Below are positions 181-8,517 of a stretch of DNA of 33,249 nucleotides, piece after piece (within the stretch, counting starts at the first letter, position 1; each line of letters starts with the position of its first letter). The stretch lies in NCBI GenBank assembly GCA_030526045.1, contig JAUNDN010000014.1, positions 1 through 33,249 of the forward strand. The letters run 5' to 3'. Position numbers and translations under genes: made by a program. Source of the DNA: Bacillota bacterium (GTDB lineage Bacteria; Bacillota; Clostridia; Lachnospirales; Lachnospiraceae). The notes under the pieces were generated by a model, which saw nothing but the letters and a program-made list of their open reading frames with translations, made no database searches and was not told where the DNA came from.

Positions 181-594
181 ATGGCAAGATACCAAAGTCC
201 CAGCCGTTCTGATGAAGAATGGTTCAGAATCATCAACGAATGTCGTCGCAGTGGCCTTTCTGATTCCCAGTGGTGCAAACAGCACGATATTCGAGAGTCA
301 ACTTTTTTCTGCGCAGTCAGTAGACTTCGTAAGAAGGCTTATGCGATTCCGAATCGCGACAAATCTATTGATATCCTTCCGGACTCACTTCCCAAACAGG
401 AGGTGGTCCGAATAGATATAGACCCGGAACCTCTACAACTGAGTAAACCGGAACCAATGCAGGTAATGCCTGCAACGTACCTTGACAATTCACATACAAT
501 TGAAATCGATGTTCATGGGATTAACATTCGTGTCTTCAACAGCGTTGACAGAGAACTTTTAAAAACAGTTCTCTCAGCCTTAGGAGGTGCCTGA
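181..594 (+). CDS. tnpA: IS66 accessory protein TnpA
   Basis: The 137-residue protein has an N-terminal helix-turn-helix-like segment (about residues 8-50, with the SGLSDSQWCKQHDIRESTF stretch typical of IS66 TnpA proteins) followed by a variable linker. TnpA is required with TnpB and TnpC for IS66 transposition; its biochemical role is not well defined and it is thought to bind DNA. The start is ATG at 181 behind a strong GGAGG. Its TGA stop overlaps the tnpB ATG by one base (TGATG at 592-596), which implies translational coupling. The gene is complete, as is tnpB, so only tnpC of this copy is damaged. Confidence 0.9.
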   Translation: MARYQSPSRSDEEWFRIINECRRSGLSDSQWCKQHDIRESTFFCAVSRLRKKAYAIPNRDKSIDILPDSLPKQEVVRIDIDPEPLQLSKPEPMQVMPATYLDNSHTIEIDVHGINIRVFNSVDRELLKTVLSALGGA

Positions 595-953
595 TGTTAG
601 GTGATATATCAGGAGTAAGAGAAATCTATATCGTAACCGGATACACCGACATGCGCAAGTCGATCGATGGACTCTGTGCCATTATTGAGGAACAGTTTTC
701 CATGAGTGTTACTTCCAGCTGTCTCTATCTGTTCTGTGGTAAGAAATGCGACCGTATCAAAGCACTTATCCGGGAGCCGGATGGCATTACCCTTCTATAT
801 AAAAGACTGTCAGTTTCCCATGGAAGATATCGCTGGCCCAGGAACAAATCCGAGGTAAGGAACCTCACCTGGCAGGAGTTCGACTGGTTAATGTCAGGGC
901 TTGATATAGAGCAGCCAAAGGCCATAAAGGTGGATTACAATGCTGCATCATAA
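594..953 (+). CDS. tnpB: IS66 accessory protein TnpB (IS66 Orf2-like)
   Basis: The 119-residue protein shows the signature TGYTDMRKSIDGL (about residues 15-27), then LYLFCGKKCDRIKAL and a C-terminal GRYRWPRN segment. All are standard for the IS66 Orf2/TnpB family, which is always found beside the DDE transposase TnpC. Length matches the family (about 115-120 residues). The start overlaps the tnpA stop. About 110 bases separate it from tnpC, and those bases contain a separate extended -10 promoter. Function beyond being required for transposition is not established. Confidence 0.92.
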   Translation: MLGDISGVREIYIVTGYTDMRKSIDGLCAIIEEQFSMSVTSSCLYLFCGKKCDRIKALIREPDGITLLYKRLSVSHGRYRWPRNKSEVRNLTWQEFDWLMSGLDIEQPKAIKVDYNAAS

Positions 954-1018
954 CGCTCGAAAAACATGATATTTACGGCATTTCCAGACATTTTCTTCTG
1001 TAAAAATCTCCTCAAAAA

Positions 1019-1063
1019 TGGTATAATAAAGACAGTTAAAAACACCGTTTTGAGGTAACAACA
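1019..1063 (+). promoter_or_regulatory. Extended -10 promoter and ribosome binding site for tnpC
   Basis: TGGTATAAT (1019-1027) is an extended -10 element with a perfect TATAAT at 1022-1027. GAGG at 1052-1055 sits 8 bases before the GTG start of tnpC. No clear -35 is visible at the right spacing, which is tolerable with an extended -10. Confidence 0.45.
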
Positions 1064-1936
1064 GTGGCCAAGAATTCTCTGGAGTCCCGCCTTACCCTGC
1101 AGGGAGATATGATCATCCAACTAAATAAAACGATACTATCTCTGCAGCAGGCAAATGCGCAGGCTTTGGAGAGCTTTAATGCGAAAGAAGCTGCTCTGTT
1201 ACAGGAGATTCAAAAACTCCGGGAGCAGAACGAATATCTTACCAAGAAGCTCTTTGGCAAATCCAGCGAGAAAAGTTCCTGGGATATGGAAGGTCAGATG
1301 AACCTCTTTAATGAGTTAGAGAAGGAACAGGATCTTTCGCTTATCGAAGAAGAACAGGAAGAAACTCAGACAGTAACATTTACTGTACGCAAGGGACGTT
1401 CTACTGATAAGGACCGTTACGCAGGACTTCCGGTGGAAAAGAAGTATCTTGATGTACCGGAAGAGGAACGCTTCTGTCCGGAATGTAATTCTCCTTTGGA
1501 AGAAATCGGTGAAACTTTTGTACGCAGAGAACTGAAGTACAAACCTGCTTCCTTTAAGGTAGTCGAATACTATAGCAGGAACTATAAATGTCCGGCTTGT
1601 TCCCCTAACGTGAAAACACCTGTCATTATCCAGGGCAAGGATGGAAAACCACATATGCTTCATGGAATGGCTTCTGCGTCTACTGTTGCCTGGATCATGT
1701 ATCAGAAGTATGTTAATGCGATGCCCTTGTATCGTATTGAAAAGGACTTTAAACAGTATGGTGTAAACATCACCAGAGCAACGCTGGCCAACTGGGTAAT
1801 CCAGAACACGGAACGTTTCCTTTCACCCTTCTACAGTTATCTTCACAGAAAACTGCTGAAGCGTATCTACATCATGGCTGACGAATTATGTGAAGCTCCA
1901 CATAACTCGTCTTATGAAAAGCTCTGCATTATGTAG
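1064..1936 (+). pseudogene. tnpC: IS66 transposase TnpC, 5' part, interrupted by the recombinase-trio element
   Basis: The first 272 codons are a normal IS66 TnpC N-terminus: a coiled-coil/leucine-zipper-like segment (about residues 1-65), LREQNEYLTKKLFGKSSEKS, a zinc-finger-like region with paired cysteines (CPEC about residue 140, CPAC about residue 171), then the transposase core start HGMASASTVAWIMYQKY. IS66 material ends at 1884, within the GAC GA of the Asp codon of the conserved MADET motif (Asp273, the first catalytic residue of the DDE triad). The reading frame then runs 17 codons into the inserted element and stops at TAG 1934-1936. The start is GTG at 1064. The product would be a DDE-less fragment; whether it is expressed or interferes with intact IS66 transposition is unknown. 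Confidence 0.9.
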
Positions 1937-1940
1937 AGTT
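1880..1940 (+). repeat. Left end of RIT-like element: palindromic unit plus terminal inverted repeat
   Basis: Two related units lie in tandem. Unit L1, TTATGTGAAGCTCCACATAA (1886-1905), is a palindrome with 7-bp arms around the centre AAGCTC; with the flanks GACGA and TCGTC the dyad extends to 13-bp arms (1880-1892 and 1899-1911, one mismatch). Unit L2, TTATGAAAAGCTCTGCATTA (1912-1931), keeps the same centre AAGCTC. CTCGTC through GAGTT (1906-1940) is the left copy of the 35-bp inverted repeat. Arms around a 6-bp centre are the usual layout of tyrosine-recombinase core sites. The right end has only one such unit. Confidence 0.7.
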
Positions 1941-1994
1941 ATCACGCTTATGTCCCATTTATCAGTATATTAGCACAACTAAACTCTACATAAT
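1928..1994 (+). repeat. Subterminal hairpin at left end of RIT-like element
   Basis: ATTATGTAGAGTT at 1928-1940 is perfectly complementary to AACTCTACATAAT at 1982-1994 (13 bp). A matching arrangement exists at the other end (4938-4950 with 4992-5004, one mismatch), so both termini have the same inverted subterminal pair. These may be accessory recombinase binding sites. The left pair also lies in the 5' region of the first recombinase gene. Confidence 0.6.
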
Positions 1995-2031
1995 CTATTG
2001 GCGATATCCTCTGTGAAAGGAGGATAGCACC

Positions 2032-2967
2032 ATGTCACATAATTCAAAAATAGTTTTACGCTATTCGCAGTACAAACCAATTCTGAACAATTATCTATCA
2101 TTACCGGAATTCCAAGAAAAAGCAGCTGAAACCATGCGTGGTAAACGTGTCACCATAACTTCCCTTTGCAACTATCTTGGGGATTCGGGAGTTGCATCTT
2201 TTCAGGAGTGTCACCCCAAAAATGTAACAAGTTTTTTGGATAGTATTTCCAGTCTGTCATCTTCTACAAAAAGTGGAAAACTTTTTATTCTTCGTCATTT
2301 TCTCAATTATCTTTATAATGAAAACTACATCATTTTCTCTGGAAATGAGCTTTTTCCTGTTATTGTTTCAAATAAAAGGGATCGAATTCTTTCATTCTAT
2401 TCTGAAACAGAAATCAAAAAACTCATATCGTGTGTCAACAACCATACTGTCAAGGGTAAAAGAGATTTGCTTATTGTGTTACTGGCTGCTGAACTCGGAA
2501 TACGTTCAGGTGATATCTGTCGGCTCAAGATCTCTGATATTCACTGGGAACGCAATACTATCGAATTCATTCAATTCAAAACCAGTGTTTTTATTCAACT
2601 TCCTTTACTGGAAAATATAAAGTTTGCCCTAATTGATTATCTTAAAAATGCCAGACCTACATGTGAAACGGATTTACTATTCGTAGGTATAAAAAACAAC
2701 TATCAAATGATTGGTGCAAGTCAGATGCATTCTGTAGTATCAAAATACTTCATCCTTGCTGGCATTGATATTTCCAAACGAAAGCATGGTCCACATGCTC
2801 TCAGACACTCTTTAGCCAGTAACCTCTTAATGAACAATACACCTATGCATGTCATAAAGGATGTACTGGGACATACAAATCTTAACACCACACGTGTGTA
2901 TCTAAATATTGATTTCAATACTTTGCAAAATTTTGCATTGGAGGTTCCTTATGAAAACAATAACTGA
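2032..2967 (+). CDS. ritA: Tyrosine recombinase, first of trio (RitA-like)
   Basis: The 311-residue protein has an N-terminal SAM-like core-binding domain (about residues 10-110) and a C-terminal catalytic domain. The family's catalytic set is visible: Arg in ELGIRSGD (about residue 158), a Lys in the beta-hairpin (QFKTS), HALRH (about residues 258-262), His in LGHTN (about 281) and the Tyr nucleophile in TRVYLN (about 291). It should cut and rejoin DNA at the element ends with its two partners. The start is ATG at 2032, 8 bases after GGAGG. The gene is intact and overlaps the next one by 17 bases. The RIT naming follows gene order only. Confidence 0.88.
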   Translation: MSHNSKIVLRYSQYKPILNNYLSLPEFQEKAAETMRGKRVTITSLCNYLGDSGVASFQECHPKNVTSFLDSISSLSSSTKSGKLFILRHFLNYLYNENYIIFSGNELFPVIVSNKRDRILSFYSETEIKKLISCVNNHTVKGKRDLLIVLLAAELGIRSGDICRLKISDIHWERNTIEFIQFKTSVFIQLPLLENIKFALIDYLKNARPTCETDLLFVGIKNNYQMIGASQMHSVVSKYFILAGIDISKRKHGPHALRHSLASNLLMNNTPMHVIKDVLGHTNLNTTRVYLNIDFNTLQNFALEVPYENNN

Positions 2968-3928
2968 CATTAATTTCCCAGAGGAATTCAAATCTCAAGC
3001 TGAAGAATATATATCCTATAAACGTTCTCTCGGATTTAAGTTTCCGATGGATGATCAGCGAAGACTGTTATACATGCTGAACCACGTATACATCCATAAT
3101 CATAATGATGTTACCCATCTAACCAAAGAAGTTGTTGATTCATTTCTATCTCTATCAATTGGTAGTAAACCACGAACACTTCATGCAAATCAATCTTTTA
3201 TTCGCCAGTACGGTTTGTATCTGCAATTGAATGGTTATGATTCCTATGTATACCCGGACAAACTCATACAATGCCCTAAAGATTTCGTACCATATATTTT
3301 TACAAAAGAAGAAATACATAGCATTTTCACGTTTGCTGATCAAATAGGACCAAATAAGAACAAATTTATCAATACACCATTCATTTATCCTGCTGTTTTT
3401 AGGCTCCTTTATGCATGTGGAACCAGAGTTGGTGAAACTTTATCTCTAAAAACTGATGACGTTAATCTCGAAGAAGGGATTATCACTATATTAAATGGAA
3501 AAAATAAAGTCTCACGTATGATTCCAATGTCTGATTCACTTACTAAATACTTAAGAATGTACAACCACAGAGTAGACCGCACAGATGGTAATCCATTCTT
3601 TTTTCCGGCTCGTCATGGCGAACACTATTCTCCAACAACAATTCGAAATACTTTTCGTAAAATCTTGCAACAGGCAGGTGTTCGTCAACTTTCCAACGGA
3701 AGTTATCCGCGTATACATGATTTAAGACATACATATGCAGTTCATGCCTTGGAGTCGTCAATAAGCAAGGGAATGGATCCTTATTGTTCATTACCGGCTC
3801 TTAGCACTTACATGGGGCATAAAGGAATAGAATCCACGGAATATTATCTCAGATTAACCAAGCAATACTTTATCGATGTCTTAAATTATACACAAGAACA
3901 AGCAAATACTATTTTCCCGGAGGTGTGA
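2951..3928 (+). CDS. ritB: Tyrosine recombinase, second of trio (RitB-like)
   Basis: The 325-residue phage-integrase-family protein starts at ATG 2951, chosen because GGAGG (2940-2944) lies 6 bases upstream; a start at 2909 would add 14 residues without such a site. The catalytic set is complete: Arg in CGTRVGET, Lys in NGKNKVSR, HDLRH, His in MGHKG and Tyr in STEYYLR. It overlaps ritA by 17 bases, and its TGA stop overlaps the ritC start region, so the three are one translationally coupled operon. It is more divergent from XerC/D than the third gene; the family-level call is firm, the specific role within the trio is not known. Confidence 0.87.
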   Translation: MKTITDINFPEEFKSQAEEYISYKRSLGFKFPMDDQRRLLYMLNHVYIHNHNDVTHLTKEVVDSFLSLSIGSKPRTLHANQSFIRQYGLYLQLNGYDSYVYPDKLIQCPKDFVPYIFTKEEIHSIFTFADQIGPNKNKFINTPFIYPAVFRLLYACGTRVGETLSLKTDDVNLEEGIITILNGKNKVSRMIPMSDSLTKYLRMYNHRVDRTDGNPFFFPARHGEHYSPTTIRNTFRKILQQAGVRQLSNGSYPRIHDLRHTYAVHALESSISKGMDPYCSLPALSTYMGHKGIESTEYYLRLTKQYFIDVLNYTQEQANTIFPEV

Positions 3929-3930
3929 TG

Positions 3931-4938
3931 ATGAATTCTTTAACATCCAATATCACGATGTTTTTTACCAACTATCTTTCAAACACAGTTGGATATTCCA
4001 AAAATACAATCAAATCTTATAGAGACACTTTTGTTTTACTCTTCTTATATGCAGAAGAAGAACATCTTATAAAGCGCGGAAAAATTTCTATTGAGCTATT
4101 TTACAAGGACACTATCGTAGCATTTCTTGAGTGGCTTGAATTAAAACGTGGAGCCTCGGTCTCAACCAGAAATCAGCGCTTGGCAGCATTGAAATCCTTT
4201 AGTCGGTATATGTCATTGACCACCATAGAATACCTTGATATTTTTCAAGCTGTTTTGGATATTCCGCCCAAGAAAGGACCATCTAAAACAGTAGATTATC
4301 TAACTGTAGAAGCGATTACACTGTTACTAAAGGAGCCAGATGCGGGCAGCTATAGTGGTATACGGGACTTAGCAATCCTTTCATTGCTTTACGAGTCAGG
4401 CTGTAGAGTACAGGAACTGATTGATTTAAAATATGGCGATTTATCACTAAATTCACCTGCAACAATTAATGTAACAGGAAAGGGAAATAAAGCAAGAATT
4501 ATCCCCATAAGTAATAAAGTAGTTTCAATTCTGAACAAATACACCGTAATGTATAAAATCTCCGACAGTACGGAAATGTTATTTACAAACAAACAAGCAA
4601 AGCCACTTACCAGATCAGGAATTGCCTACATATTAAAAAAACACTCTGATTCCGCACGGACAAAAAATCCTCAGATATTTGGAATGGCCCCTATTCATCC
4701 ACATGTATTGAGACATTCTAAAGCAATGCATCTTCTTGAAAGCGGCGTTAATCTCATATATATCCGTGACTTTTTGGGACATTCATCTGTTATAACCACG
4801 GAAATATATGCAAAATCAAATCCAGAAATCAAGCGCAGATATCTTGAAAAAGCAGCATCAAACATTGATATTTCAGTAAATAAATTCTCCGAAAAAGAAA
4901 AAGAAACTTTATTGGAGTGGTTAAAACACAACATTTGA
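3931..4938 (+). CDS. ritC: Tyrosine recombinase, third of trio (RitC-like)
   Basis: The 335-residue XerC/D-like protein has an N-terminal core-binding domain (about residues 8-95, YSKNTIKSYRDTF) and catalytic residues Arg in SGCRVQEL, Lys in GKGNKARI, HVLRH, His in LGHSS and Tyr in TTEIYAK, all present. Three tandem start codons (GTG 3925, ATG 3928, ATG 3931) follow GGAGG at 3919-3923; 3931 gives the best spacing (7), while 3928 gives a TGATG coupling with the ritB stop. The C-terminus continues about 30 residues past the Tyr. The three proteins together probably form the recombination complex of the element. Confidence 0.88.
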   Translation: MNSLTSNITMFFTNYLSNTVGYSKNTIKSYRDTFVLLFLYAEEEHLIKRGKISIELFYKDTIVAFLEWLELKRGASVSTRNQRLAALKSFSRYMSLTTIEYLDIFQAVLDIPPKKGPSKTVDYLTVEAITLLLKEPDAGSYSGIRDLAILSLLYESGCRVQELIDLKYGDLSLNSPATINVTGKGNKARIIPISNKVVSILNKYTVMYKISDSTEMLFTNKQAKPLTRSGIAYILKKHSDSARTKNPQIFGMAPIHPHVLRHSKAMHLLESGVNLIYIRDFLGHSSVITTEIYAKSNPEIKRRYLEKAASNIDISVNKFSEKEKETLLEWLKHNI

Positions 4939-5026
4939 TTATGTAAAGTTATCTTGGCAGAAAGTCTCATAATAATGGGGGACTTTCTGTCAACTCTACA
5001 TAATGCAGAGCTTTTCATAAGACGAG
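4938..5026 (+). repeat. Right end of RIT-like element: terminal inverted repeat and nested hairpins
   Basis: Bases 4992-5026 are the exact inverse of 1906-1940 (35 bp). ATTATGTAAAGTT (4938-4950) pairs with AACTCTACATAAT (4992-5004) with one mismatch, and inside it CAGAAAGTC (4958-4966) pairs with GACTTTCTG (4981-4989), which may act as a weak transcription stop after ritC. The single core-like unit here is TAATGCAGAGCTTTTCATAA (5001-5020), with centre GAGCTT, the inverse of the left-end centre. The last six bases, GACGAG, are also tnpC codons for Asp-Glu. Confidence 0.75.
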
Positions 5027-5857
5027 ACCACCGTTCAGGTGCTTCATGAGGAAAGCAAACGAGCAGAAAGCACTTCTTACATGTGGCTGTTCAGAACCGG
5101 AGAAGATGGTTATGAACCCATCATTCTTTACAAGTATTCTCCGACCAGAGCCGGAGAAACAGCCGTAGATTTTCTGGAAGACTTTTCAGGTTACATCATG
5201 TGTGACGGATACAGTGGTTACAATAAGTTGAAGAAAGCCAAGCGAACCACTTGCTGGTCTCACGTAAGGAGATATCTTCTGGATGCCATTCCGAAAGGGA
5301 AAAAGATGGATTACACACTCCCGGCAGTACAGGGAGCCATGTATATCGACAAACTTTTTCATTTGGAGAAAGAAATCAAAAAAAAACACAAAAACGACTT
5401 TGATGCCATCAAAGCAGCCCGCCTCGAGAAAGAAATGCCTGTTCTGGAGGGATTTTGGGCGTGGTTTGAAAAACAGCACCCAACCAAAGGTACCAGAATG
5501 GATAAGGCCATTACTTATATCAAAAACAGAAGGTCTGACATGATGACTTATCTGGAAGATGGTCGTTGTAGTTTCTGTAATAACTTAAGTGAAATCGAAA
5601 TCAAACCGGTAGCTCTGGGCAGAAAGAATTATCTCTTCTCTGATACAGTTGCTGGAGCTGATGCAAGTGCCACAATCTATTCTCTAGTGGAAACGGCAAA
5701 AGCAAATGGACTAAACATGTACCATTACCTCTGGTATCTGTTAGAAAAACTTCCGGAAACAGATCTGTCCGATGAAGCCTTTGAAAGATACCTTCCATGG
5801 AATCCGGAAGTAAAAGCGAATCTGGAAGAATGGGCAAAGAAACTTCTGGAAGACTAA
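5021..5857 (+). pseudogene. tnpC: IS66 transposase TnpC, 3' part
   Basis: The frame opens at GAC 5021 (immediately after a TAA) and encodes DETTVQVLHEE, the continuation of the transposase interrupted at 1884. It contains the first catalytic Asp at its edge, the second in MCDGYSGYN and a Glu-containing segment before KPVALGRKNYLFS typical of the third catalytic region. It ends with the C-terminal SDEAFERYLPWNPEV segment seen in many IS66 transposases. The 278 codons here plus 272 upstream give about 550, normal for the family. An internal GTG at 5039 could start a truncated product but has no convincing ribosome binding site. Confidence 0.9.
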
Positions 5858-6195: not shown

Positions 6196-7734
6196 ATGAC
6201 CAAGTACAGAGAAATCATTCGCCTTACCGGCCTGGGATTCTCACAACGCGATATCATGGCCAGCTGTGGTGTCGCACAGAAAACTGTCGTCAAGGTTCAG
6301 AAACGTGCCAGAGAATTAAAACTTTCATGGCCTCTTGATGAAGCAATGACTGACACGGAGCTGCAAAGGCTCATGTTCTCCAAAGAGAACAAAGTATCAC
6401 CTAACAAGCGTATGCCTGACTACGCTTACATCCACAAGGAGCTGCTCCGCAATGGAGTCAGCAAAAAGCTTCTGTGGACAGAATACATGGAGGACTGCCG
6501 TGCCAACGGCGACGAACCGCTCATGTATTCCCAGTTCTGCTATCACATCCAGCAGGATGAGCAGAAACGACGTGCTACCATGCATATCAATCGCAAACCC
6601 GGCGAACAGGTTGAAGTAGACTGGGCAGGGGACCCTGCAGCAATCATTGACCCGGATACCGGAGAAATCATTAAAGCCTATATATTTGTCGGCGTGATGA
6701 CCTACAGTCAGTATGCATATGTGGAGGCATGTCTGGATATGAAGCAGAAATCATGGATTAATGCCCATGTCCATATGTACGAATATTTTGGCGGTGTTGC
6801 CAGGATACTCGTACCGGATAACTGCAAGACTGCAGTTGTTCATAATGGTGGATTTAAGGACCAGCAAATCAATGAAACCTATCAGGAAATGGCTGAACAC
6901 TATGGCACCGCTATTATTCCGGCGCGTGTCAGGGCTCCCAAGGACAAGCCGAATGCTGAAGGAACGGTAGGAAACATATCTACCTGGATTACAGCAGCAC
7001 TTCGGGATGAACAGTTCTTCTCCCTTGCCGAATTAAACCGGGCAATCAGAGATAAGCTGGAACTGTTCAACCAAAGGCTCTTTCAGAAGAAAGAGGGTAG
7101 TCGGCGAAGCTTATTTCTTGGGGAAGAAAAACCATTGCTGGCACCATTACCTGCTACCCGTTTTGAACTGAGTGACTGGAAAACAGCCACCGTCCAGTTC
7201 AATTATCACATATCTGTGGACGGAATGCTATACTCAGTTCCTTATGAATACATCAAAAAGAAAGTTGATGTAAAGGTAACAGATACCACTATTGAAATTT
7301 TCTACAACCATAACCGCATTGCTTCCCACCGCCGTCTGAAAGGACGTACCGGGCAGTACAGCACCATTACCGAGCATATGCCGGAAGACCATCAGAAATA
7401 TCTGGAATGGAACGGTGACCGCTTCCGTAAGTGGGCTGAGCGGATTGGTATAAATACGTACACTGTAGTCAATGCGATATTGACCTCCAAAGGTGTGGAA
7501 CAACAAACTTACCGGAGCTGTATGGGGCTTCTAAAGCTTGCAGAGAAATACTCAGATGCATTGCTGGAAGCTGCCTGTAAAAGGGCATTATCCTATACAG
7601 CATCGCCGAGTTACAAGAGTATAAAAAACATCCTTGTAACCAGTTCTGAAAAACTGATATCGGGAACACCCGATACCAAGGCAACACCAAAAGCACACGG
7701 CATCACAAGAGGTGCCGATTACTATCGGAGGTAA
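6196..7734 (+). CDS. istA: IS21-family transposase IstA
   Basis: The 512-residue protein has an N-terminal helix-turn-helix (about residues 5-45, GFSQRDIMASCGVAQKTVVKV), a second DNA-binding region and an RNase H-fold integrase core. The DDE residues are visible: Asp142 in EVDWAGD, Asp208 in LVPDNCK and Glu255 in PNAEGTVG. A beta-barrel-like C-terminal segment (VDGMLYSVPYEYI, about residue 345) follows. It catalyses cut-and-paste transposition with the ATPase IstB. The start is ATG at 6196, 9 bases past AAGGAG. The gene is full length with no frameshift, and istB begins 6 bases after its stop, so the two are co-translated. Confidence 0.95.
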   Translation: MTKYREIIRLTGLGFSQRDIMASCGVAQKTVVKVQKRARELKLSWPLDEAMTDTELQRLMFSKENKVSPNKRMPDYAYIHKELLRNGVSKKLLWTEYMEDCRANGDEPLMYSQFCYHIQQDEQKRRATMHINRKPGEQVEVDWAGDPAAIIDPDTGEIIKAYIFVGVMTYSQYAYVEACLDMKQKSWINAHVHMYEYFGGVARILVPDNCKTAVVHNGGFKDQQINETYQEMAEHYGTAIIPARVRAPKDKPNAEGTVGNISTWITAALRDEQFFSLAELNRAIRDKLELFNQRLFQKKEGSRRSLFLGEEKPLLAPLPATRFELSDWKTATVQFNYHISVDGMLYSVPYEYIKKKVDVKVTDTTIEIFYNHNRIASHRRLKGRTGQYSTITEHMPEDHQKYLEWNGDRFRKWAERIGINTYTVVNAILTSKGVEQQTYRSCMGLLKLAEKYSDALLEAACKRALSYTASPSYKSIKNILVTSSEKLISGTPDTKATPKAHGITRGADYYRR

Positions 7735-7740
7735 ATACAT

Positions 7741-8517
7741 ATGACAAATCAGAGTACAATTGATAAATTAATTGAAATGCGTCTTACTGCTATGGCAGAT
7801 GCATTTCGCAACCAGCTGGATGATCCAAAGCTTAAGGATATTCCTTTTGAGGATCAGTTCGGTATGCTGGTAGATATCGAATACAGCAGCCGTAAAAACA
7901 ATCGTCTCAAGAGGCTGATAAAGAGTGCCGGATTCGATCAGCCGGAAGCCAATATCATGGATATCAACTACACTTCCGGGCGCAAGCTGAACAAGGAACT
8001 GATTCACAGACTTGCTACTTGCGAATATATATCTGAACACCGGAATCTCTTTATTACCGGTGCTACAGGCTGTGGCAAGACTTACATGGCCTGTGCTTTT
8101 GGCATGGAGGCTTGTAAGCAGTATTACAATACCAGGTATGTCCGCCTTCCTGATCTGCTTATTGACTTAGAGATAGCACGGACAGATGGCAACTACAAAA
8201 AAGTTATGGCTAAGTATGCCAATCCTTTTGTCCTGATTCTGGATGAATGGCTTCTATTGAAACCAACGGATTCAGAACAAAGGGATATCTTCGAACTGCT
8301 CCACCGGAGACGCAAGAAATCTTCAACAATTTTCTGCTCTCAGTATGAATTCGAGGAGTGGTATGACCAACTGGGTGGTGATGACAGTCCTCTGGCAGAT
8401 GCAATCATTGACCGCATTGCCCATGATAATTATCGCATCAACATCACAAGCATAGATGCCGAGCATGACATCTCAATGCGTGAGGTCTATGGATTAGACA
8501 AAACATTACGCGAGTAA
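7741..8517 (+). CDS. istB: IS21-family helper ATPase IstB
   Basis: The 258-residue AAA+ ATPase is related to DnaC. Walker A is GATGCGKT at residues 107-114 and Walker B is VLILDEW ending near residue 170 (Asp168, Glu169). The N-terminal IS21-specific region (residues 1-75) is intact, and the C-terminal sensor region includes LADAIIDRIAHDNYRI. IstB assembles on target DNA and activates IstA. The ATG lies 5-10 bases after the GGAGG at the istA end. The complete pair suggests this copy could be active, depending on its right end. Confidence 0.95.
   Translation: MTNQSTIDKLIEMRLTAMADAFRNQLDDPKLKDIPFEDQFGMLVDIEYSSRKNNRLKRLIKSAGFDQPEANIMDINYTSGRKLNKELIHRLATCEYISEHRNLFITGATGCGKTYMACAFGMEACKQYYNTRYVRLPDLLIDLEIARTDGNYKKVMAKYANPFVLILDEWLLLKPTDSEQRDIFELLHRRRKKSSTIFCSQYEFEEWYDQLGGDDSPLADAIIDRIAHDNYRINITSIDAEHDISMREVYGLDKTLRE

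Follow-up and report, generated by a model that had tools for sequence, protein, structure and literature searches.

The stretch of DNA analysed here (the window: 33,249 nucleotides of contig JAUNDN010000014.1, assembly GCA_030526045.1, from a Lachnospiraceae member of the Bacillota) carries a copy of the insertion sequence IS66, whose open reading frames (ORFs) span 181-5857. Its transposase gene, tnpC, is interrupted by three tyrosine-recombinase genes that overlap one another. Such trios, the recombinase-in-trio (RIT) elements, have been in print since 2009. The window element very probably belongs to a clade of RITs whose integration is specific for the codons of the catalytic Asp of the IS66 TnpC and of the next Glu, and proceeds through a dif-like double-core site. 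The features of the locus are listed below.

594..953, + strand: IS66 tnpB (PF05717, NF033819)
1064..1885, + strand: N-terminal half of IS66 tnpC (PF03050, NF033517, sequence), last codons GAC-GAA (Asp-Glu, 1880-1885)
1880..1885, + strand: outer hexamer GACGAA, the N-side copy of the overlap (sequence)
1886..1905, no strand: 20-bp palindromic linker TTATGTGAAGCTCCACATAA, two overlapping inverted 11-bp half-sites (palindrome 18/20; inverted repeat)
1906..1911, - strand: inner hexamer CTCGTC, the overlap in inverted orientation (sequence)
1906..1940, + strand: left terminal inverted repeat (TIR), 35/35 complementary to 4992-5026
1982..1994, - strand: inner inverted copy of the second half-site, AACTCTACATAAT (repeat search)
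2032..2967, + strand: ritA-like tyrosine recombinase, 311 aa (PF00589, 1.3e-27)
2951..3928, + strand: ritB-like tyrosine recombinase, 325 aa, 17-bp overlap with ritA (PF00589, 2.1e-27)
3925..4938, + strand: ritC-like tyrosine recombinase, 337 aa, XerD-like, 4-bp overlap with ritB (PF00589, 5.4e-33)
4992..5026, - strand: right TIR, 35 nt, 100% complementary to the left repeat, ending in GCTTTTCATAA-GACGAG
5021..5026, + strand: C-side hexamer GACGAG (Asp-Glu codons), abutting tnpC without a linker (sequence)
5021..5857, + strand: C-terminal half of IS66 tnpC, DETTVQVLHEE... (PF03050, PF13817, NF033517)

The split tnpC gene and the recombinase trio

A RIT-like trio inside tnpC, at the catalytic Asp of the MADET motif, had been proposed in a sequence-only reading of the window, and the Pfam matches of the two gene halves, the three recombinases and the 35-bp repeats confirm this. 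ORF 1064-1936 covers columns 1-74 of the 284 columns of PF03050 and also matches zf-IS66 and LZ_Tnp_IS66; ORF 5039-5857 covers columns 82-283 and additionally matches PF13817. The NCBIfam IS66 transposase model NF033517 was found in each of the two pieces. The split point lies at the Asp-Glu codons of the MADET motif. The halves contain 273 and 278 codons, as expected for the joined gene of about 550 codons that had been predicted; intact relatives are mostly open frames of 528-566 aa, with others of 494 and 595 aa. The ORF at 181..594 (+ strand, 137 aa) is presumably the IS66 tnpA, judging by its position.

The same reading had placed the element at 1874..5038 and joined the halves at a shared GACGA. 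The insertion and a common block are indeed present; however, the RIT element proper occupies 1886-5020 (3,135 bp, slightly short for RITs, which are about 3.5 kb), the block is a hexamer, GAYGAR (here GACGAA and GACGAG), common to both junctions, and a 20-bp linker on the N side had been overlooked. The N-half terminates in GCT-GACGAA, followed by the palindrome at 1886-1905 and the inverted hexamer, which separate tnpC from the repeat on this side only. The left repeat is composed of the hexamer, a half-site TTATGAAAAGC (1912-1922), 6 bp, and a second half-site TTATGTAGAGT (1929-1939). At the other end, the mirror half-site GCTTTTCATAA (5010-5020) is followed by GACGAG (5021-5026), and then by ACC and the C-half of tnpC. 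The junction core, GCTTTTCATAA-GACGAG-TTATGTGAAGC, has the Xer/dif format of 11-bp half-sites with 6-bp gaps. The perfect 35-bp repeat is not attributable to chance, and the codon pair recurs in 10 other genomes.

The trio has the order A-B-C of the RITs, each recombinase matching its own position in the relatives, and the catalytic motifs HxxRH and H..Y were read by eye in all three proteins. The best matches of RitC are XerD (TIGR02225, 3e-55, below the curated cut-off of the model; PDB 1a0p, 5.2e-22). The window RitA is 72-77% identical and the window RitB 66-75% identical to those of the relatives L044-L048; the values are 87% and 88% for a decayed relic, L049. The RitA of the window has 311 aa, about 100 aa shorter than the open frames of its RitA relatives (mostly 410-437 aa). 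RitA was described with two successive core-binding domains (PMC8138268); the RitA of this clade perhaps lacks the extra one.

Close relatives and their insertion sites

In the main survey, 84,980 species genomes were scanned with the ritC of three complete rows; at least 500 relatives were confirmed, and the best 80 were analysed. Twelve of these (L044-L053, L058 and L068) have a ritC at least 51% identical to that of the window and are taken as close relatives. All 10 with readable junctions sit in an IS66 tnpC at the same two codons, which gives 11 genomes with the window, and no copy was seen at an unrelated site among these relatives, as the targeting proposed in the sequence-only reading would predict. 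In these ten, query residue 273, the Asp of MAD, is the last one matched in the tnpC N-half, and/or the C-half match begins at residue 1-2. GAYGAR was seen at every junction of the clade, and all four synonymous spellings are represented. Of the others, L044 lies on a contig that ends at the element's own ends, so that its flanks are unreadable; in the relic L049, ritC runs into a C-terminal remnant of IS66 (PF13817, E 1e-4, below the curated cut-off), and the exact junction is lost. The eleven labelled IS66 rows and L044 form one group in the ritC tree (Shimodaira-Hasegawa-like approximate likelihood ratio test, SH-aLRT, 96), which was built from 91 rows by a quick method with L049 left out and carries a long-branch warning.

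The linker was found at all 10 readable N-side junctions (eight including the window, and two on contig L163 of the L068 genome) and at none of the 11 C-side tnpC junctions. The direction of the element itself varies: it runs with tnpC in six cases (the window, L045, L050, L053, L058 and L068) and against it in three (L047, L048 and L051). Two elements have hybrid flanks, with two N-halves in L046 and two C-halves in L052. Some of these tnpC genes carry further insertions. In L047 (1432-3661) and L051 (427-3693), the CWAH motif of the same tnpC holds a second set of genes for Rit-like recombinases; in L048 (111-3409), one Rit-like gene, 29% identical to ritC, lies after NNLA and before the catalytic Glu; and in L052 (615-3340), an insertion of about 2.7 kb lies at GR|KN of the left tnpC half, with none of the three recombinases matching at E 1e-6.

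Narrower searches gave few relatives. At the family level, ritA matched in 12 of 299 genomes at E 1e-40 (the window's own included), the trios being 31-43% identical in ritA; at the genus level it matched in 6 of 37 genomes (own included), one of them, at 87%, being the relic L049. The ritA search of viral contigs revealed no relative.

The insertions are independent, because the ritC sequences are highly alike while the tnpC halves have diverged. The RitC proteins of L050-L053 are 86-91% identical between genomes; whereas the tnpC N-halves of L050, L051 and L053 share only 38-49%, and the C-halves of L050-L053 only 44-69%. For example, L051 and L053 have RitC proteins 91% identical, in tnpC genes 38% (N-half) and 48% (C-half) identical. 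Across genomes the tnpC halves are 31-69% identical, except for L058/L068 at 86%; two short rows of L163, in a bad frame, were excluded from this comparison.

Empty sites were also found. In the genome of Sporolactobacillus nakayamae, one and the same IS66 site occurs both empty and filled: the intact tnpC reads ...CTTTTGCATGCA[GATGAA]ACCATTC, the site being GCA[GATGAA]ACC; whereas the filled one reads ...CTTTTGCATGCA[GATGAA]TTATGTTGAGCTCAACATAATTCATCTTATG, that is, GCA[GATGAA]TTATG... Moreover, among 14 different tnpC copies without an insertion at the site, 13 read GCN-GAYGAR-ACN, the exception being L147 with AATGAA. Duplicate fetches and four identical G104 copies were merged in this set, and L135, L152, L155 and L158 have no full-length frame elsewhere. 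A search for empty copies of the window's own IS66 in its genome and genus (E 1e-50 cut) gave only the interrupted copy. The nearest site-intact copies come from the family (L151, 57% identical over the N-half, and L153-L157). In an alignment of 11 TnpC rows (one of which, L164, is a wrong ORF), ADET is the top conserved of 432 four-residue windows.

Five copies of another RIT were found in Enterococcus pallens (L080, L081, L082, L084 and L085), four of which do not differ over 3,420 bp; the fifth is shorter by one base. They sit in different, related Rpn-type genes at the same Glu-Met codons; L080, the one that was scanned, belongs to PDDEXK_2. Between copies, the target genes are 60-95% identical in their N-halves and 53-95% in their C-halves. 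The linker lies on the left in three copies and on the right in two, in every case at the C-half of the gene, and both directions of the element occur. By their sequences, these copies look like recent movement with a fixed target and a fixed linker polarity, regardless of the direction of the element.

A proposed double-core attachment site and its alternatives

A model that would account for both junction types starts from a circular free form. The joint of the circle would read TIR..CATAA-GAYGAR-TTATGNNNNNNNNNNCATAA-YTCRTC-TTATG..TIR and hold a pair of inverted 11-6-11 (dif-like) cores with a common palindromic middle. A crossover of either core with the tnpC site GCN-GAYGAR-ACN would give both types of junction, in either direction of the element; since only the overlap, and not the element, is directional, the linker would end up at the N-half in every case. 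The sequence-only reading had suggested that the catalytic codon itself may be the attachment site. Its targeting part stands, and the recognised unit can be refined to a 6-bp overlap over the Asp and Glu codons plus the target flanks. Since GAYGAR encodes Asp-Glu in all four synonymous forms and a change of these codons would cost IS66 its catalytic residue, the target could hardly evade the element, which may therefore be able to follow IS66 from host to host.

Several observations weigh against this reading. The RIT is present as a single copy in the window genome by a genome search, and activity of the clade was not directly seen; each of 11 clade genomes gave one ritC match, collapsed repeats being possible, so that a high copy number was not seen either. 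The junction pattern GAYGAR-linker-TTATG was found only in the window among 392 genomes of the order, and it had no match in viral contigs; a generic linker pattern was found in one of 160 family genomes, with a RIT between pieces of RIT recombinase genes. The flanks of the IS66 target site are unlike Xer half-sites, no circle or excised form was seen, and both the circle and the sequence in which strands are exchanged are inferred. Moreover, strict identity of the overlap is not needed, because the two hexamers of one element are not always identical: they agree at a mean of 4.9-5.1 of 6 positions in 38 elements. In this respect the hexamers behave like coupling sequences that need only a rough match.

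A single ancient insertion into IS66, spread as an IS66::RIT composite or by descent, would leave the common codon merely inherited. Every clade copy with readable flanks is in IS66, and IS66 itself is mobile; however, the contrast between RitC and tnpC in L051 and L053, the two orientations, the S. nakayamae pair and the identical E. pallens RITs in several genes make this origin highly improbable, and it is refuted unless tnpC evolves far faster than ritC. The same mismatch of identities and the same empty and filled pair refute clonal descent, which had been set against targeting from the start. Selection could also act afterwards, with random insertions surviving where breaks in an active site are kept since partial products are harmful. 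The labelled targets are largely genes of mobile elements, as would then be expected; but selection is unlikely to pick one codon pair of about 550 to the base, and HxlR, TetR and RadC genes are also targeted, with junctions precise at the base level, so that this idea has almost no probability in our judgement. It is also improbable that the specificity lies in the hexamer GAYGAR alone, with IS66 being struck because transposases tolerate insertion. A group of RITs in the Walker B motif of IstB does have the same hexamer; however, the window tnpC halves contain three GAYGAR, thousands are expected per genome by estimate, and 11 of 11 genomes use the same one. The IS66 and IstB groups each stay in their own gene, with one change each on the ritC tree.

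The order of events might differ from a double-stranded crossover. In a single-strand route similar to that of integrons or SEs, the hairpin of the linker would be the substrate, and the element would be copied out rather than cut and pasted. The linker and hexamers can form a perfect or near-perfect hairpin, the five near-identical E. pallens copies suggest replicative gain, and SEs and Tn554 leave 6-bp footprints, the movement of SEs being thought to be copy-out (PMC10214605). On the other hand, the double-stranded two-core model accounts for the linker side and both orientations without folding, and only three recombinase ORFs are present, with no fourth gene such as the SE tfp or srap. The single-strand route is possible, though doubtful. 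Targeting of the IS66 codons through a double-core site is the reading that we favour.

The window element shares with the RITs ritA1B1C1 and ritA2B2C2 of C. metallidurans the three overlapping genes of the A, B and C subgroups, a size of about 3-3.5 kb and inverted repeats of about 34 bp. The element ritA1B1C1 inactivates an IS66 tnpA, and two RITs, in C. metallidurans and B. petrii, inactivate radC (PMC2864759, 2010). RITs were also described in a Tn6049-like transposase and in radC, with an inverted repeat that has an overlapping palindrome (PMC3414803). In Table 1 of a 2023 paper, the target specificity and movement of RITs are listed as not tested, and RIT transposition had not been reproduced so far (PMC10214605). 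RITs in IS66 and radC are therefore already on record, and the new part is the targeting rule together with the model of the attachment site. Codon-level targeting, the linker-side rule and a site with two overlaps were not met in the parts of these earlier descriptions that were covered. No statement of a catalytic-codon rule for RITs was found in the portion of the literature searched, and a prior one is possible.

Some features are shared with other systems. The 11-6-11 core and the XerD-like RitC resemble Xer/dif, and TTATGTAGAGT resembles the XerD arms of the dif sites of E. coli (TTATGTTAAAT) and B. subtilis (TTATGTAAACT). The whole dif sequences are from PMC3025954. Unlike the elements that exploit Xer/dif, which use the XerCD of the host, the window element has its own trio and an inverted double core, and lies in the tnpC gene rather than at dif. 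SEs, GInts and Tn554 are likewise transposons with tyrosine recombinases and target specificity, and SEs and Tn554 leave 6-bp footprints (PMC10214605); whereas the window element has no fourth conserved gene (tfp/srap or ginC/ginD) and no TnpC of the Tn554 type. Both the site choice and the reaction have analogues: the former resembles homing introns and inteins, the latter Xer/dif. Homing introns and inteins insert at sequences for invariant residues of active sites, so that the target is not easily lost. In contrast to them, no Pfam domain of a homing endonuclease, intron or intein was found in the three ORFs, there is no splicing, and the RIT destroys its target gene. The insertion site of Tn554 lies in radC.

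Conserved motifs as probable targets of other RIT lineages

Target labels were given to 56 of the 80 loci, 11 for IS66 and 45 for other genes (among 68 loci outside the clade), mostly by reading the junction codons by eye. The targets other than IS66 include IstA, IstB, RadC, ParA and reverse transcriptase; most labelled targets are genes of mobile elements, and regulators (HxlR, TetR) and RadC also occur. Separate Pfam scans of the two halves confirm many of the labels, in that the columns at the end of the N-half and the start of the C-half coincide or differ by at most two. For example, they are 161/160 at Walker B (L054) and 104/104 at Walker A (L115) of IstB, 70/70 (L105) and 71/70 (L088) in RadC, 73/72 in PDDEXK_2 (L080), and 123/125 in the reverse transcriptase of Rhodococcus (L174); in the ParA-type AAA_31, the corresponding columns are 125 (end of the N-half, L073) and 124 (start of the C-half, L070). 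Junctions were further read at the catalytic Asp (L061-L064) and PDN (L169) of IstA, the Glu of IstA or rve (L079, L028, L116, L120), the HATPase NAxxHRDY (L029, L060, L083, L099, L100), the PP-loop (L090, L103, L108), IS110 (L176), and the catalytic Tyr of tyrosine recombinases (L170, the right side of L171, and L181). The RIT genes themselves are also hit: in L032 (5878-9402), a RIT lies inside a ritC-like gene at the HxLR|H motif (Phage_integrase 133/133), and in L181 (1996-5738), a RIT with linkers on both sides has at each flank the C-terminal part of a RitC-like gene that is interrupted at the catalytic Tyr (IY|AKANP and VY|AYADTE). The IstB Walker-B group shares the hexamer GAYGAR (L054, L055, L056, L057 and L069), and L065 has GATGAT.

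These labels were compared with independent evidence. Pfam scans of 40 half-genes matched the family that had been read in 27 cases (a few below the gathering cut-off), gave nothing in 11 and another or too weak family in 2; a further scan matched 7 of 9, two below the cut-off. The labels of the unmatched half-genes rest on the reading alone. The four residues nearest the junction (1-4) show a higher mean similarity than residues 11-40 on both halves, in all 10 comparisons, which cover five target classes with 2-10 rows each. On the ritC tree, the 18 target groups need 20 changes, as compared with 47.2 for shuffled labels. The RadC, nuclease and PQGG reverse-transcriptase groups changed more than once even when only well-supported branches are counted. 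For HATPase and rve_E the tree gives two changes each, and one origin is still possible.

Both ends were read in 47 elements, of which 38 have exactly one linker, three have two (the left one of L095 being doubtful) and six have none. A regular expression located the ends, except that the motifs were set by hand in ten loci and on one additional side. Palindrome scores have a bimodal distribution in which values of 10-12 out of 20 are scarce, and the threshold of 12 was our own choice.

Together, these data suggest that the whole RIT class might be parasites of invariant codons, a generalization that we favour with some reserve. The recombinases of each lineage would recognise one conserved catalytic or nucleotide-binding motif, mostly in mobile elements, through a bidirectional palindromic double-core site; the motifs would comprise the IS66 Asp, the Asp/Glu of IstA, Walker A/B of IstB, reverse transcriptase, RadC, Rpn, and the HxLRH and Tyr of the RIT recombinases. 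Some loci speak against such a general rule. In L059, L066, L067, L074 and the family locus L030, a flank was read and no conserved motif was recognised at the junction, so they are possible exceptions, and 9 of the 47 elements deviate from exactly one linker, some of them being clearly rearranged. Among the 24 unlabelled loci, seven contigs stop at or near the ends of the element (L044, L071, L077, L086, L119, L122, L123), and in 13 loci an end or a flanking gene is unreliable (L075, L076, L078, L093, L097, L101, L102, L104, L106, L109, L110, L112, L117). Seven of the 18 family regions (L025-L042) were labelled. Of eight plasmid regions, five were read on one or both sides (L169, L170, L173, L174, L176) and L171 on the right side; L175 gave no reading, and L172 was left out of the analysis.

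Some further observations concern single loci. L066 and L067, both from Acidobacteria, have identical RitC proteins and flanks with no recognised motif. In L041 (4462, 7891), the two ends are flanked, by reading, by the N-terminal portions of two distinct ParA-like genes, both cut in the KGGV of Walker A and without a linker; this is perhaps a rearranged pair. In the window, an IS21-like pair lies directly downstream of the interrupted IS66 (6196-8517), with an istA of 512 aa (rve, Mu-transpos_C_2) and, by reading, an istB-like gene of 258 aa. Other RIT lineages interrupt genes of these two kinds, istA and istB.

The finding offers a simple, testable rule for RITs, by which they target the string of codons for an invariant motif and attach through a palindromic double core. 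Such a rule would explain why RITs turn up in transposases and radC, and the model supplies exact attB, attL, attR and circle sequences. RITs would then represent a class of transposons that uses the strategy of homing elements without a nuclease. A natural brake on insertion sequences is also suggested, since every insertion removes the active site of a transposase; if the rule is true, RITs of invariant codons would be natural, self-spreading inactivators of transposases.

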